A stretch of 64,000 bases of DNA, taken from contig NZ_JAQNDK010000002.1 in the NCBI RefSeq assembly GCF_028368935.1, positions 1,364,001-1,428,000 of the forward strand. The letters are read 5' to 3'. The notes under the pieces were generated by a model. The model saw only the letters and a list, made by a program, of their open reading frames with translations. It ran no database searches and was not told the origin of the DNA. Positions 56,951-64,000 of this stretch are shown here, piece by piece. The position numbers and the translations under genes were made by a program. Within the stretch, counting starts at the first letter, position 1; each line of letters starts with the position of its first letter. Source of the stretch: Sorangium aterium. GTDB lineage: Bacteria; Myxococcota_A; Polyangia; Polyangiales; Polyangiaceae.

Positions 56951-59900
56951 TCACACCCTGAGCACCACCCCTCTCGCCCTCTCGCCCGTCGCCTCCGCGA
57001 TCGCCTGCACGTAGAGCCGCACCTGCGCCTCCTGCGCCGCGTGCGCCGTGCCCGCGTCGGAGCCGGTCTTGAAATCGACCACGGTCCAGATCCCCACGTC
57101 GCCCACGCTCTCGCGGAACGAGAGGTCGACGATGCCCTCGGCGATCGTCCCGTCCTCGAGCCGCAGGAGCAGCGGCGTCTCCCGCTCGCACGCGCCGCGC
57201 GCGGCGCTCTCCGCTGCGCGCCGGAGCAGCGGGTGCTCGAGCGCCGCGACCGCCGCCGCGACCGCCGCGTCGAGCTCCTCGGCCGGCGCCCCGAGCAGCC
57301 TCGCCTGCGCCGCCGCCACCGTCCTTACCTCGTCCTCGCCCGCCCGGAGATCCACCTCGGCCAGCACCGCGTGCACAAGCGTCCCGAACCGCTTGCCGTA
57401 GGGCCGGCCCTCGCGCGCGATCTCCGTTTGCTCGAACGAGATCACCGGCAACGCGTCCGCCCTCTCCCCGCGCGCCGCCCCGCCGCCGCTCCGCTGCGCG
57501 GCCGCCGTCCCCGCTCCGGCCGCCGCCGCTGCCGCCTCCGCCGCCTCGTGGCTGATCTCCGTCGCCGTCTTCACGCGGACAGCCGCCATCGAGCCGTCCA
57601 CGATCGCCCGCTGCCGCGCCTCCTGCCATGCCTCGTGCCCGCGCTGCCCGAGCTCTCCTCCGAGCACGGCGCTCGCGGTCGCCCCGCTGCTCCCCAGGAC
57701 CCCGGCGCCGCTCGCTGGCCCGGCGCTCGCCGCCGCCACGCCCGCCCCGGCGCCGCCCGCGTCCGCCTGCAGGATCCGCTGCTGTCGCAGCCCCGCCTCC
57801 GGCTCGCGATCCAGGTCGAGCGCCCCCGGATCCCACCACACCACGCGGTGCGATCCGGCCATCGGCGCGTGCTCCCCCGGCGCGACCGCGTCCCGCTCGT
57901 CGGCCTCGCACCGCGCCGGGCGCTCCAGCACCGTGTCGGTCCCGAACGGAGGGCAGCCGAGATCTTCACAGCGCCGAGGGCTCCGCCGCTCGCGCGGCGC
58001 CGGGTAGAGCACGGGGTGCAGCACGTCGAGCCAGCCGTCGCTCGTGCCGTCGCCCGGGCGCGCGTCGCCCACCGCGGGCACGACCAAGAGCTCGCGCGCA
58101 CGCGTCGCCGCGACGTACGCGAGCCGCACCGCCTCCTCGCGATCGCGGCGCAGCACCTCGTCGCGGCGCTCGACGAGCTCCGCGGGCACGCAGCCGGCGA
58201 TCGGCTCCGCCCACAGGCCGAGCTCCGGATCGACGTGTCGGGACGGGAGCTGGTGCGCCGCCGGCGACGCCGGATCCGCCAGGATCACCACCGGGAACTC
58301 GAGCCCCTTGGCCCGGTGCACCGTCATGATCCGCACCCCCTCCGTCCCCTCCTCGACGACCGGCGCCTCCGCGACCTCGCCCCGCTCGGCGTCCAGCTCG
58401 AGCCGCTCCACGAACGCGCGGAACGACGTCGCGCCGGCCGCCTCGAAGCGCCGCCCGAGATCCATCACCCGCAGGACGTTCGCGAGCGCTTGCTCCCCCG
58501 TCGGCCAGATCGCGATGCCCGCGTGCGCGCGCGTCTCGTCGAGGAGCCCGCCGATGGTGTCCGCGATCGGCCGCCGGTTGCGCTCGCGGTGCAGCCTGCC
58601 GAGCACCGCGAGCGCCTCCGCGACCTCCCGGAGCGGCCGCGCCCCGCCCTCCACCGCGAGATCGAGCGCGCCGTCGTCCGGCGGTCGAAACAGCGGGTGC
58701 AAGCGCCGGAACCGATCGCGGTAGAGCAGGAGCACGTCGTCCGTCAGCGCGAAGAGGGGCCCGCGCAGCGTCGCGTAGACGCTGAGCTCGTCGTCCGGCC
58801 ACTCGATCGCGAGCAGCGCGCTCCGCACCGCCATCACCTCCTCGCGATCGTGGAACGACCGCCCGCCCACCAGCACGTGCGGGATCCGCCGCGCCTCGAG
58901 CGCCCGCACGTAGGCGCGGGTCGCGTCCTCGCCGAACGTCTGGAAGCGCTTGAACAAAAGGCAGATGTGCCGCGCCTCGAGCGGCACCCGCTGGCCAGGG
59001 CGCTCGCGCTCCGTCACCGTCCAGCGCCGCGCGCCGCCACCGTCCAGCGCCGCGCCGCCGTGGATGAGGTGGTGGACGAAGGCGCCCACCGCGTCCGGGA
59101 TCGACTGCCGCACCCGGAAATCGGAGATCTTGCCGAAGTCGCCGTAAGGCCGCGGCACCGGGAGCGCGATGACCGTCGGCTGCTCCGGCGGATCGTCCCG
59201 GAACCGCTCGAGCGCGACGTACCGCGCCTGGGTCGCCGCGCGCTCGCCCTCGGCGGCGCCTCCCTGCATCAGGGGGGCGAACGCCGCGTTGACGGCCTCC
59301 TGGATCGACGGGGCGCTGCGGAAGCTCGTCGACAGGTACAGCACGCTCGCGCCGCACGCGACGAGCCGGGCCTTGGTCGCCTCGTAGAGCGCGACCTCGG
59401 CGCGGCGGAAGCGGTAGATCGACTGCTTCGGATCGCCGACGACGAAGAGCTTGCCGGGCACCGGGCGCGCCCGCGTCCAGTCGGTCTCGGAGAGGTCGTC
59501 GGCCGCGAGCAGGAGCAGGATCTCCGCCTGGAGCGGGTCGGTGTCCTGGAACTCGTCGACGAAGAGGTGCGAGAAGCGGAGGTTCAGCTCCTCGCGCACG
59601 CCGCGGCTCGATCGGAGGAGGTCCCGGGCGCAGAGGAGCAGGTCTAGGAAGTCGAGCTTGCCGGCGCGGGCCTTGAGCGCGTCGTACGCCTCGATCGGCG
59701 GCCGGAGCTCGCGCGAGAGGCACGCCGCGAGATCGGCGCTCGCGGCCGTCAGCACGGCGTCGAGCTCGACCTTCACGCGGTCGCGCTGCGCGAGCACCTC
59801 GGCGCGCATGAGATCCCCGCCGAACGCCTTGCCGGTGCCCCTCCAGCGCCATTCCTTCCAGCGCGCGACGTCGCCGAGCTCGGCCTCCAGGCCGTCGTGG

Positions 59901-60703
59901 TCGCGCCCGCCCGTCACCTCCTCGCGGCGGCGGAGCTCCGCGAGGTAGCGGTCGAGGTTCCGGAGGCTCTGCGCGAGGTAGTCGCCCTCCCGGTCGGCCT
60001 CGGCGCCCAGGCCGGCGAGCGCCGCGAGGCGGTCCAGGATCTCGTCGATGGCGCGCTCGCGGTCGAACGGGTCGCGCCGCCAGGGGCGCGTGAAGTCGCG
60101 GTGCTCGGCGAGCTTGAACGCCGCGCTCCGGAGCAGGTCGCGCGGGCCCTGCGCGCCGTCGCGCGGGCGCCGGCGCAGGATCCGGCGCACGCCCTCGGGC
60201 GGGTCGTTCAGGGTGCGCTGGAACCAGGCGTCGAAGGCCTGATCGAAGAGCGCCTCGGCCTGATCCGCGGCCGCGACCTGGAACAGCGGGTCGACGCGCG
60301 CCTCGACCGGCCACTCGCGCAGGAGGTCGGCGCAGAAGGAGTGGATGGTCCCGATGCGCGCCGCCTCCAGGTGCGCGAGCGCCTCGTCGAGCCGCGCGCG
60401 CTCCGCGGGGCCGGCGCTCGGGTCGCTGCGCGCCCGCTCGATCTCGGCCCGGAGGCGCAGCTTCATCTCGCCGGCCGCCTTCTCCGTGAAGGTCACCGCG
60501 ACGATCCGATCGAGCGTCCCGCCGCCCTCCTCGGGCGCCCTCCGCAGCACGGCGACGATCCGCGACACGAGCGCGGTGGTCTTGCCGGTGCCCGCGGCGG
60601 CCTCGACGACGAGCGTCGTCCGCAGATCGTCGCGGATGCGGCGGCGAGCGGGCTCGTCCGCGAGCACCCGCGCGCCGCGCGGCCGGACCGCGTCGGCGTT
60701 CAC
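56951..60703 (-). CDS. AddA-like UvrD-family helicase with C-terminal PD-(D/E)XK nuclease
   Basis: 1250 residues from GTG 60703. Walker A AAAGTGKTT (35-43), motif Ia TFTEKAAGEM, DEFQDTDPLQAEIL (motif II), GDPKQSIYRFRRAE (motif III), and VRIMTVHRAKGLEFPVVIL (motif V) define superfamily 1A. After a low-complexity Ala/Gly/Ser insert (about 1010-1090) comes the nuclease: GIVDLSF...WTVVDFKTG with the D/DxK triad and QVRLYVQA (Gln motif). This is the AddA subunit layout, which processes double-strand breaks for RecA repair. No AddB-like gene is adjacent, so its partner, if any, is elsewhere. Its last 140 bases are duplicated at 55650-55790. Confidence 0.93.
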   Translation of the reverse strand: MNADAVRPRGARVLADEPARRRIRDDLRTTLVVEAAAGTGKTTALVSRIVAVLRRAPEEGGGTLDRIVAVTFTEKAAGEMKLRLRAEIERARSDPSAGPAERARLDEALAHLEAARIGTIHSFCADLLREWPVEARVDPLFQVAAADQAEALFDQAFDAWFQRTLNDPPEGVRRILRRRPRDGAQGPRDLLRSAAFKLAEHRDFTRPWRRDPFDRERAIDEILDRLAALAGLGAEADREGDYLAQSLRNLDRYLAELRRREEVTGGRDHDGLEAELGDVARWKEWRWRGTGKAFGGDLMRAEVLAQRDRVKVELDAVLTAASADLAACLSRELRPPIEAYDALKARAGKLDFLDLLLCARDLLRSSRGVREELNLRFSHLFVDEFQDTDPLQAEILLLLAADDLSETDWTRARPVPGKLFVVGDPKQSIYRFRRAEVALYEATKARLVACGASVLYLSTSFRSAPSIQEAVNAAFAPLMQGGAAEGERAATQARYVALERFRDDPPEQPTVIALPVPRPYGDFGKISDFRVRQSIPDAVGAFVHHLIHGGAALDGGGARRWTVTERERPGQRVPLEARHICLLFKRFQTFGEDATRAYVRALEARRIPHVLVGGRSFHDREEVMAVRSALLAIEWPDDELSVYATLRGPLFALTDDVLLLYRDRFRRLHPLFRPPDDGALDLAVEGGARPLREVAEALAVLGRLHRERNRRPIADTIGGLLDETRAHAGIAIWPTGEQALANVLRVMDLGRRFEAAGATSFRAFVERLELDAERGEVAEAPVVEEGTEGVRIMTVHRAKGLEFPVVILADPASPAAHQLPSRHVDPELGLWAEPIAGCVPAELVERRDEVLRRDREEAVRLAYVAATRARELLVVPAVGDARPGDGTSDGWLDVLHPVLYPAPRERRSPRRCEDLGCPPFGTDTVLERPARCEADERDAVAPGEHAPMAGSHRVVWWDPGALDLDREPEAGLRQQRILQADAGGAGAGVAAASAGPASGAGVLGSSGATASAVLGGELGQRGHEAWQEARQRAIVDGSMAAVRVKTATEISHEAAEAAAAAAGAGTAAAQRSGGGAARGERADALPVISFEQTEIAREGRPYGKRFGTLVHAVLAEVDLRAGEDEVRTVAAAQARLLGAPAEELDAAVAAAVAALEHPLLRRAAESAARGACERETPLLLRLEDGTIAEGIVDLSFRESVGDVGIWTVVDFKTGSDAGTAHAAQEAQVRLYVQAIAEATGERARGVVLRV

Positions 60704-60953: not shown

Positions 60954-61901
60954 ATGCGCCTCGAGTCGATGAGCCCTGGAGCGCGGTGGGCGTACGCGCT
61001 CAAGCCCGCGAGCTGGCCCAAGGTGCTCGTCCCGGCCGTATACGGGCACGCGGTGGGCGCGGCCGTCGCCGGCCGGCTGTCCGCAGGGGCCCTGGCCTTC
61101 GGCGCGCTGTGGATGATGGCCGACGTCGCCTTCGTCGTGCTCCTGAACGACTGGGGCGATCGCGAGGTGGACGCCCTCAAGCGACGCATGTTCCCGGACG
61201 GCTGCTCGCCGAAGACCATCCCGGACGGCATCCTTCCCGCCAGCGCCCTCCTGCTCGCCGGGCTCGGGGCCGGCGTCGCCGCGTTGCTCATGGCCTGGGG
61301 TGCCGGTATCGCGCTCGATCGCCCGCTGCTGCTCCCCCTGGCCGCGCTCGGCCAGCTCGTCTTCATCGCCTATACGTTGCCGCCGATCCGGCTCAACTAC
61401 CGCGGCGGCGGCGAGCTCCTCGAGATGGCCGGCGTCGGCGGCGTGCTCCCCGCGCTGCACGCGTATGCCCAGTGCGGCGCGCTGGCGCCGGCGTGGCTCG
61501 TCGCGCTCCTGCCCGGGTTGCTCGTGCTCGCGCTGGCGAGCGCGCTGGCCAGCGGGCTGTCCGACGAGCAGAGCGACCGCGCCGGCGGCAAGCGCACCGT
61601 GGCCACGCTGCTCGGCAATGCGGCCACGCGCCGGGCCACCGAGGCCCTCGCCGGCCTCGGCCCGCTCCTCTGGCTCGCGGCGTCCCTCCTCGCCGAAGAC
61701 GCGCCGCCTCCCTGGTCGGTCGCGCCGGCGGCGGCCGTGGCGCTCTTCTTCCGGGCGCGGCTCCTCGAGAAGAGCCCCGAGGCGGTGACGAACGCCTTCG
61801 CCGCGCAGGCGGCCTACAAGCGCGAGCTCCACCGCGCGATTCAGTGGGGGATCGTCGCCCTGTCGGCGGCCGTGCTCGCCGCCGGGGGAGGGCCGGCATG
61901 A
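60954..61901 (+). CDS. UbiA-family prenyltransferase (first of two)
   Basis: 315 residues, about eight membrane helices; ATG 60954 with AGGGAGAG upstream. Both Asp-rich motifs of the UbiA family are present: NDWGDREVD (Asn65-Asp66-x2-Asp69-x3-Asp73) and DEQSDRAGGKRT (204-215), which bind Mg-prenyl diphosphate. Also RLNYRGGGELLEMAGVGGVL, shared with the second UbiA gene. It would transfer an isoprenoid chain to an acceptor in the membrane. Acceptor unknown. Stop overlaps the next start (ATGA). Confidence 0.93.
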   Translation: MRLESMSPGARWAYALKPASWPKVLVPAVYGHAVGAAVAGRLSAGALAFGALWMMADVAFVVLLNDWGDREVDALKRRMFPDGCSPKTIPDGILPASALLLAGLGAGVAALLMAWGAGIALDRPLLLPLAALGQLVFIAYTLPPIRLNYRGGGELLEMAGVGGVLPALHAYAQCGALAPAWLVALLPGLLVLALASALASGLSDEQSDRAGGKRTVATLLGNAATRRATEALAGLGPLLWLAASLLAEDAPPPWSVAPAAAVALFFRARLLEKSPEAVTNAFAAQAAYKRELHRAIQWGIVALSAAVLAAGGGPA

Positions 61902-62632
61902 CGGGCATCGCGGTCATCCCTCCGGAGGAGCGCGACGCGCTCGCGCGCCTCACGCCCCTGCAGGGCGCGCGGGCCTCGGTCGCGCCGGGCCGGCCGTGCG
62001 CGCCCACCCCCGTCGCCCTGGTCGAGCAGATCGTGAGCGGCAGCGAGGACGCCGAGCGGGCGCGCGCCTTCGCCCGCGGGCTCGGCGAGATCATCTGCGC
62101 GGTCGCCGACAACTTCCCCGACAACATCTTCTGGGATCTCGACTACCTGGCCTGCTGCCTGTGGCAGGCCGGGAGCGCGCCCGCGATCGGCGACTTCGCC
62201 CGCCGCGTGGTGTCGCTCTGCCTGGGCTTCGGCAACAAGTCGAAGCTGCGCTTCCGCTACGCGCACGACTTCCTCTACGGCTACGACTGGGCTCGCTGGG
62301 TGATGCGCAAGCCGGACGAGCGCGCGGGCATCGGGCCCTTCGACGTCTCGTTCTTCGATTACCTCGACGGCCGGCAGAGGACGCTCATCGAGCTCGTGGC
62401 CAGCAACGATCGCAAGTACTCCCAGCTGAACGGCCGGGAGTACCGCAACCCCTTCTCGTTCATCCGCGAGCCGCCCGAGGAGTCGCAGCTCCACTGCCTG
62501 CTCGCCCAGGTCGACCTGATCCCGCTCAAGGCCTGGCGCCTCGACGGCGAGCGCCGCTGGGACCTCCCCTTCACCGATCTGCGCGCCAAGCTGGCCGATC
62601 GCCTCGGCCTGTCGCGGGGCGAGGGGCGATGA
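61898..62632 (+). CDS. Hypothetical protein between two UbiA genes
   Basis: 244 residues, soluble, not recognised. Start ATG 61898 overlaps the UbiA stop; its own stop overlaps the next UbiA start, so the three are coupled. Conserved-looking segments: CAVADNFPDNIFWDLDYLAC, KLRFRYAHDFLYGYDWARWV and YRNPFSFIREPPEESQLHCL. Aromatic and acidic content suggests an enzyme or a lipid-binding partner. No known motif. It probably acts with the prenyltransferases on the same lipid. Confidence 0.82.
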   Translation: MTGIAVIPPEERDALARLTPLQGARASVAPGRPCAPTPVALVEQIVSGSEDAERARAFARGLGEIICAVADNFPDNIFWDLDYLACCLWQAGSAPAIGDFARRVVSLCLGFGNKSKLRFRYAHDFLYGYDWARWVMRKPDERAGIGPFDVSFFDYLDGRQRTLIELVASNDRKYSQLNGREYRNPFSFIREPPEESQLHCLLAQVDLIPLKAWRLDGERRWDLPFTDLRAKLADRLGLSRGEGR

Positions 62633-63546
62633 GCGCCCGGCCGGGCGCGCTTCGAGCGTGGCTCGATGCGTCGCGGCTGGCCTCGCAGCCGAGCATCGCG
62701 CTCCCGCTGCTGCTCGGGCAGCTCGTCGGCGCGCAGGCGGCCGGCCGACCGCTCGACCTGGGGACGCTCGCGGCGGTCCAGCTGTTCGGCCTGCTGGACC
62801 AGCTCTTCATCGTCTACGCGAACGACGTCGCCGATCGGGAGACCGATCGCCGCAACAGGACCGCCACGCCCTTCTCGGGCGGCTCGCGCGTGCTCGTCGA
62901 GGGGCGCCTCTCGCCCCGCGCGCTCGGCGCGGCGGCCGCCGTGTGCGCCGCGGCGCTCGTGGCCGTCTCCGCGGCGCTCGCCGCGGCGCTGGCGACCGCC
63001 GCAGCGCCGCTCCTCGTGCTCCTCGCGATCGCGGCGCTCCTGCTCCTCTGGGCCTACAGCTACCCGCCGCTTCGCCTGTCGTACCGCGGCGGCGGGGAGC
63101 TGCTCCAGATGGTCGGCGTCGGCGCGGTCCTGCCGCTCTACGGTTACATCGCCCAGGGGGGCGACCCCGCGCGTTTTCCCTTCGCGCTGCTCGCGTTCCT
63201 GCTGCCGAGCCACCTCGGCTGCGCGATCGCCACCGCGCTCCCGGACGAGCCCTCGGATCGCGAGAGCGGCAAGCGGACGCTGCCGGTGCGCGTGGGCGGA
63301 GAGCGCGCGGCTCGGTGGGTGGTCCTCCTGAACGGGCTCTCGCTCCTGCTCGCGCCGGTCGGCCTGGGCGCCGTGGGCCTGCGCCCGGGGGCGGGCCTGC
63401 TCGCGCCGGCGGCGGCGGCGCTCGTCGTGCTGCTGGCCCGCCCGGCGCCGCCGGGCTCGCGCCTGCTGCTGGTCCGGGTCGCGGCGGCGGGCGCGGCGAC
63501 GCTGGCGCTGGTCGGCTCGACCGCCATCGCGCTCGCAGCGCGCTGA
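62629..63546 (+). CDS. UbiA-family prenyltransferase (second of two)
   Basis: 305 residues, about eight membrane helices. Motifs NDVADRETDRRN (Asn65, Asp66, Asp69, Asp73, the same positions as in the first UbiA) and DEPSDRESGKRT, plus LSYRGGGELLQMVGVGAVLP. The shared positions and the RGGGELL phrase show the two are paralogs within one pathway. Start overlaps the preceding stop. Followed by a cyclase-like gene 14 bases on. Confidence 0.93.
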   Translation: MSARPGALRAWLDASRLASQPSIALPLLLGQLVGAQAAGRPLDLGTLAAVQLFGLLDQLFIVYANDVADRETDRRNRTATPFSGGSRVLVEGRLSPRALGAAAAVCAAALVAVSAALAAALATAAAPLLVLLAIAALLLLWAYSYPPLRLSYRGGGELLQMVGVGAVLPLYGYIAQGGDPARFPFALLAFLLPSHLGCAIATALPDEPSDRESGKRTLPVRVGGERAARWVVLLNGLSLLLAPVGLGAVGLRPGAGLLAPAAAALVVLLARPAPPGSRLLLVRVAAAGAATLALVGSTAIALAAR

Positions 63547-63560
63547 GGGGCGAGGGCGCG

Positions 63561-64000
63561 ATGTCGCACGAGTTCCTGCTGCTCTCGTTGCTCTTCCTCG
63601 TGCCAGGGGGCGTCATCTGGCTCGCGCGCCCGGATCTGCGCCCCCTGATGAAGCGGATGGCGCTCGCCTCGCTGCCGTTCGCGGCGGCCGAGCGGCTGTT
63701 CTACCCGAGGTACTGGGCCCCGAAGTTCCTGTTCGACCTGGCCGATCGGATCGGGTTCGGCATCGAGGACGTGCTGTTCGTCGTCGGGCTCAGCGGATTC
63801 TCCTCGACCGTCTATGCCGTGGTGTTCCGCCGCGCGCCCGTGCCCTGCGCGGCGCGGGGGGCGCGGCCGTGGCGGCGGGCGGCGGCGGCGATCGCGCTCG
63901 TGCTCGCGGTGGCCGGGGCGCTGCTCGCGGCGGGGGTGCCCGTGCTCTATGCGTCGGTGACGGCGATGGTGGCGGTCGCCGCGGCGCTCGGCGCGGCGCG
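63561..64000 (+). CDS. Lycopene-cyclase-domain-like membrane protein, 3' end outside window
   Basis: At least 146 residues from ATG 63561 (GAGGGGCGAGGG upstream), open at the right edge. Membrane helices with LFYPRYWAPKFLFDLADRIG and FGIEDVLFVVGLSGFSSTVY between them, which recall the CrtY-c/d type lycopene cyclase domain (conserved P..LF..iEd..F). The assignment is from pattern memory and is only moderate. Being directly behind two UbiA genes, it most likely acts on an isoprenoid. Confidence 0.65.
   Translation, partial: MSHEFLLLSLLFLVPGGVIWLARPDLRPLMKRMALASLPFAAAERLFYPRYWAPKFLFDLADRIGFGIEDVLFVVGLSGFSSTVYAVVFRRAPVPCAARGARPWRRAAAAIALVLAVAGALLAAGVPVLYASVTAMVAVAAALGAA

Follow-up and report, generated by a model that had tools for sequence, protein, structure and literature searches.

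Co-inheritance of two UbiA-type prenyltransferase genes with the gene of a family-less protein points to an undescribed isoprenoid pathway in Myxococcota

The way in which three neighbouring genes of a Sorangium genome are inherited points to a putative isoprenoid pathway that is so far undescribed. The genes encode two UbiA-superfamily prenyltransferases (UbiA-A and UbiA-B) and, between them, a soluble protein without a family (X), and all three occur together in 39 of 379 Myxococcota genomes. On balance we lean towards the reading that they constitute an obligate three-component isoprenoid-transfer pathway, whose product would be neither menaquinone nor haem O nor an archaeal-type ether lipid.

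Membranes and respiration are defined by quinones, haems, chlorophylls and ether lipids, all of them products of UbiA enzymes, and to our knowledge it is rare for a new UbiA-dependent pathway to come to light. In the present case it is purely the statistics of sequences from a whole phylum that join three proteins, including one whose fold is unknown, into a single candidate pathway, and the resulting set of genes is small and testable. The trio is the first functional lead for X, which is also present in Nostocales cyanobacteria, and So ceGT47, a sequenced Sorangium that has lost UbiA-A, provides a natural comparison. No description of this gene set was found in the papers searched, a search that left most subscription papers outside its scope.

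Layout of the locus and the protein X

The window, that is the whole stretch of 64,000 bases that was analysed (G000:C2:1364001-1428000), lies inside a 13.5 Mb genome whose nearest named strains are Sorangium cellulosum. At its right end four co-directional genes follow one another on the forward strand. UbiA-A (60954-61901, 315 aa) is a UbiA-superfamily intramembrane prenyltransferase (PF01040, E 1.9e-20), X (61898-62632) is 244 aa long, and UbiA-B (62629-63546, 305 aa) is a second prenyltransferase of the same superfamily (PF01040, E 2e-26). The fourth gene, which we call the cyclase, encodes a PF18916 lycopene-cyclase-family membrane protein of 233 aa (E 1.7e-11) and runs from 63561 to the window end at 64000 and on to 64262. 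The original prediction had described the four genes as coupled or 14 bases apart, and its coordinates are right: direct reading of the sequence gives ATGA start-stop overlaps of 4 bases, on the forward strand, between UbiA-A and X (61898-61901) and between X and UbiA-B (62629-62632), and 14 bases separate UbiA-B from the cyclase. It had also advised inspecting the sequence to the right of the window; in the flanking sequence that we fetched, the cyclase stops 262 bases past the window end and is followed by a convergent glycosidase-like gene. On the 5' side there is a divergent helicase-like gene. Therefore, with a convergent neighbour at one side and a divergent one at the other, the set consists of these four genes. 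The divergent gene upstream of UbiA-A (window 56951-60703) is a large UvrD/AddA-like helicase. Between Sorangium strains the four cassette genes show dN/dS values of 0.19-0.58, and therefore UbiA-A, X, UbiA-B and the cyclase are under purifying selection.

The middle protein had been called unrecognised, and so it is for every family collection consulted: X belongs to no Pfam, NCBIfam or PHROGs family, and no NCBIfam model of any kind matches it at E below 0.1. No membrane segments are predicted in it. The predicted structure (AF2, pLDDT 94.6, pTM 0.91) is all-alpha, with mainly helical content, and a Foldseek search of this model against the PDB and viral models gave nothing significant, with no PDB match below E 0.6. 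The best VIA Z for X was 6.7, to designed helical repeats, a match that is uninformative; a PDB sequence search with the X profile returned designed helical proteins only, at E 0.5 or worse. The alignment of X (21 relatives) contains 22 invariant columns, including D80, H123, D124, R183, R190 and E195.

Inheritance of the trio

The profiles of X (A2), UbiA-A (A3) and UbiA-B (A4) were run on one set of 379 Myxococcota genomes, with thresholds (1e-50, 1e-45) that were picked to keep out cross-hits among UbiA proteins; the cross-hit of the UbiA-A profile on UbiA-B in the genome of the window reaches 178 bits, and true UbiA-A hits score 245-488 bits. X was found in 41 genomes, UbiA-A in 40, UbiA-B in 41 and the complete trio in the 39 mentioned above. 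Partial sets occur in three genomes, namely G128, without UbiA-A, G264 (80% complete), without UbiA-B, and G058, where UbiA-B is a fragment at a contig end. The hypergeometric p of the co-occurrence is about 1e-52 by genome and about 1e-31 by genus, both values ignoring shared ancestry. A middle protein always occurring without UbiA genes, which the original prediction had named as a finding that would speak against it, is not what the genomes hold: X co-occurs with UbiA-A and UbiA-B.

The same search across Myxococcota, also proposed there, covered the gene order. In 40 of the 41 genomes with X, at least one of UbiA-A and UbiA-B is no farther than 300 bp from it; for UbiA-A the count is 35 of 40. 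Regarding UbiA-B, 19 of 40 genomes have it no more than 300 bp from X and 21 no more than 6 kb, and in the other 19 the distance exceeds 100 kb or the two genes are on different contigs. As the co-occurrence also holds in these 19 genomes, about half of the total, the link is functional and goes beyond synteny. Furthermore, carriers and non-carriers are intermixed within families, which argues for repeated joint loss or gain. The chance adjacency of X and the UbiA genes was considered too and was rejected, given the near-perfect co-occurrence and the X-UbiA proximity. In G432, a genome sampled from the phylum to which a Nostoc belongs, the trio is likewise an operon.

The complete genome of So ceGT47 has kept X, UbiA-B and the cyclase and has lost UbiA-A, and G128 has no UbiA-A either; therefore, UbiA-A is not always needed. 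At the So ceGT47 locus (L051:8845-9173) a degraded start of UbiA-A adjoins the intact X, UbiA-B and cyclase genes, with an HD-phosphohydrolase-like gene close by. In the draft genome of So0008-312, UbiA-A is broken across two frames, which may be a sequencing error. X, for its part, is present without UbiA-A and UbiA-B in Nostocales and also in Myxococcus sp. RHSTA-1-4, and therefore it can act without them. The Nostocales homologues (L033, L034, L035, L036 and L138) are flanked by yjbQ-like and nif3-like genes. Among the plasmids searched, none carries X.

One or two ArsA/GET3-type ATPase genes adjoin UbiA-B in several carrier families, also where X is distant (loci L037, L039, L040, L041, L043, L081, L083 and L093; L182, L185, L186, L187, L192 and L196). 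The ATPase pair beside UbiA-B may be an old synteny.

The two prenyltransferases and their possible products

UbiA-A and UbiA-B match PF01040 over the whole protein, with 73.7 and 93.2 bits respectively (Pfam cut-off 34.2 bits), which assigns them to the UbiA superfamily. The Asp motifs which had been noticed at the same positions in both were found again: the first, N65-D66-D69-D73, occupies identical positions, and the second is D204/D208 in UbiA-A and D206/D210 in UbiA-B. These motifs (NDxxDxxxD and DxxxD) do not vary in the alignments of UbiA-A and of UbiA-B, with 13 relatives each. In a tree of 57 proteins, whose long branches restrict deeper inference, the two form separate clades (support 100/98 each), which are sisters (95/73) and lie on the MenA side of the superfamily (98/94), outside MenA. 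By these sequence comparisons UbiA-A and UbiA-B are shown to be ancient lineages distinct from MenA, CtaB and UbiA/COQ2.

Neither protein reaches the cut-off of any named prenyltransferase in NCBIfam. Both stay far below the MenA equivalog cut-off, UbiA-B scoring 53.7 bits where 264 are needed. Elsewhere in the genome there are a MenA (L002), a CtaB (L001) and a decaprenyl-phosphate phosphoribosyltransferase (L004), each above its curated cut-off, and because of these dedicated genes we rejected UbiA-A and UbiA-B as the menaquinone, haem O or decaprenyl-phosphate phosphoribosyltransferase enzymes. The earlier suggestion that the set lies outside known pathways agrees with the separate MenA, and the searches brought up no homologous set with an assigned pathway. 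An additional UbiA of the genome (L007:1354-2376) is EboC-like, with 108 bits, under the cut-off of 250.

The position beside MenA, together with the weak NCBIfam matches, among which the MenA models are the best, would also suit an aromatic meroterpenoid or quinone branch, where the MenA-like pair would prenylate an acceptor of naphthalene or benzene type and a chroman- or beta-ring-like end would be made by the cyclase. Menaquinone decoration is indeed known in myxobacteria, e.g. in the myxoquinones (PMC8955186). Nevertheless, we consider such a branch rather doubtful, given that the genome's MenA is separate and that ring-forming aromatic genes, which the original prediction had not seen at the locus, do not recur beside the trio either. 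The myxoquinone cluster itself was rejected, as its genes are reported for Cystobacterineae and work with a different UbiA/MenA, MxqL (PMC8955186).

In the neighbourhoods compared there is no recurrent acceptor-forming gene fixed beside the trio, nothing but the ArsA-type ATPase pair near UbiA-B, and this would suit a role of UbiA-A and/or UbiA-B as terpene synthases, with a prenyl diphosphate being cyclised or rearranged to a hydrocarbon and X as the tailoring enzyme. Terpene synthases of the intramembrane UbiA type are known from fungi (PMC9835599). However, UbiA-B has DxxxDxxxGKRT, the form of MenA-type transferases, as its second Asp motif, and we regard this explanation as very unlikely.

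UbiA-B also matches models of geranylgeranylglycerol-phosphate transferases weakly, with 24-26 bits, as could be the case if one of the UbiA proteins were a digeranylgeranylglyceryl phosphate synthase for archaeal-type diether lipids. PcrB/GGGPS was found above the cut-off in none of 47 genomes, 28 of them carriers, whereas the same search was positive in control archaea and Bacillus. Because GGGPS is absent, archaeal-type ether lipids are disfavoured, and we hold them to be extremely improbable.

The cyclase and the proposed pathway

The fourth protein had been called lycopene-cyclase-like, and its match to PF18916 Lycopene_cyc (45 bits, cut-off 27 bits) agrees with that. It is the sole PF18916 protein of this genome, and its acidic residues E69/D70 and E202, located in both halves, are invariant. 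Foldseek found nothing significant in the PDB for the cyclase model (pLDDT 78). The cyclase profile matches 4 of the 379 genomes, every one of them with the trio (p about 1e-4; about 1e-3 when taken as three genera). Thus, of the UbiA-X-UbiA-cyclase unit that had been proposed, the co-inherited trio stands, but the cyclase falls outside the conserved core. In G048 and G384, which we take to be Sandaracinus, it is far from the trio, and therefore the association is not explained by linkage alone. In G134 the order is UbiA-A, X, ABC ATPase, UbiA-B, cyclase. A plasmid of Ilyobacter polytropus (Fusobacteriota) carries the cyclase and UbiA-B side by side, each 43% identical to that of the window, and therefore their coupling is old. 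The cyclase is an optional add-on following UbiA-B (Sorangium, G134, Ilyobacter), and most carriers are without it. G057 has a PF18916 protein that the cyclase profile does not match. In So0157-2 (Sorangium cellulosum) the cyclase gene (L028:9626-10819) contains around 15 tandem copies of a 27-base unit between its halves, translated as repeats of LAAARTRPG.

In the known C50 carotenoid branch (PMC3598387, PMC6393565) a UbiA elongase acts first and a CrtY-type cyclase second: the elongase adds C5 units to one end of the carotenoid, where the CrtY-type protein then forms the ring. In Corynebacterium these parts are played by CrtEb and CrtYe/Yf. Such a branch is also suggested by crtI/crtB genes about 2.4-7 kb from UbiA-B in genus g76 and in G211. 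We judge it unlikely, however. The cassette contains no crt genes and the Sorangium crtI is about 0.74 Mb away; curated CrtI is absent from 7 of 28 carriers and from 5 of 19 non-carriers, i.e. there is no association; and a PF18916 cyclase of this type is missing in most carriers. Furthermore, UbiA-A and UbiA-B are on the MenA side of the tree, below all named cut-offs, and Sorangiineae already use a CruA-type lycopene cyclase, as reported for their carotenoid synthesis (PMC9304148). An obligatory carotenoid pathway in particular is disfavoured, because CrtI is missing alike in carriers and non-carriers. As for genus g76, crtE-, crtD-, crtC-, crtI- and crtB-like genes lie a few kb from UbiA-B (L209:4188-11128 and L210:8759-11431), and these carotenoid loci include a CarH-like MerR/B12-type regulator, with an ECF sigma factor gene in between.

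In the three-component pathway that we prefer, each UbiA would move a prenyl chain, within the membrane, from a prenyl diphosphate onto a small acceptor; the two might work one after the other or as a heteromeric pair, and their substrates may differ. X would be their cytosolic partner, which makes, presents or finishes the acceptor and would be as indispensable in Myxococcota as both transferases. In Sorangium and a few others, the chain installed by UbiA-B would be closed into a ring at its end by the CrtY-type protein, through acid-initiated cyclisation. As product we would expect a membrane lipid or quinone-like compound that is prenylated and, in some cases, also cyclised. We infer in this way the two prenyl transfers, the partner role of X and the terminal ring closure by the cyclase. 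In a wider version, to which we give slightly less than an even chance, a large part of Myxococcota would have had an undescribed isoprenoid lipid pathway ancestrally, with many later losses, made up of two obligately paired UbiA enzymes and of X as an enzyme or subunit of new fold. UbiA-B and the cyclase would, in this version, be an ancient module of their own, which Fusobacteriota also have and whose product would be a non-carotenoid isoprenoid ending in a ring.

Comparison with known systems

With MenA and the wider UbiA superfamily (PF01040), UbiA-A and UbiA-B share the sequence family, the two Asp motifs, the membrane location and the MenA side of the tree; nevertheless, they are two clades outside MenA and far under its cut-offs, and the true MenA is elsewhere in the genome. 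The ebo cluster, with the UbiA-like EboC and the soluble EboA of unknown kind (PMC5133447, PMC6282210), is similar in that a UbiA and a soluble protein, both orphans and the latter without known relatives, are at the centre of a conserved cluster. However, there are two UbiA proteins here, the EboC-like UbiA of this genome, itself below the cut-off, is another gene (L007), and X matches none of the NCBIfam models searched.

The C50 branch of decaprenoxanthin (CrtEb and CrtYe/CrtYf) resembles our set in coupling a UbiA enzyme to a CrtY-type (PF18916) cyclase, whereas the core here is two UbiA proteins and X, the cyclase is optional, the cassette is free of carotenoid genes and CrtI is not required. 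Finally, the fourth protein has in common with the CrtYcd/CarR-type lycopene cyclases its match to PF18916 and the acidic residues retained in each half, but it is of a distinct subfamily, which goes with the UbiA trio in 4 of 4 genomes and is paired with UbiA-B in a fusobacterium.
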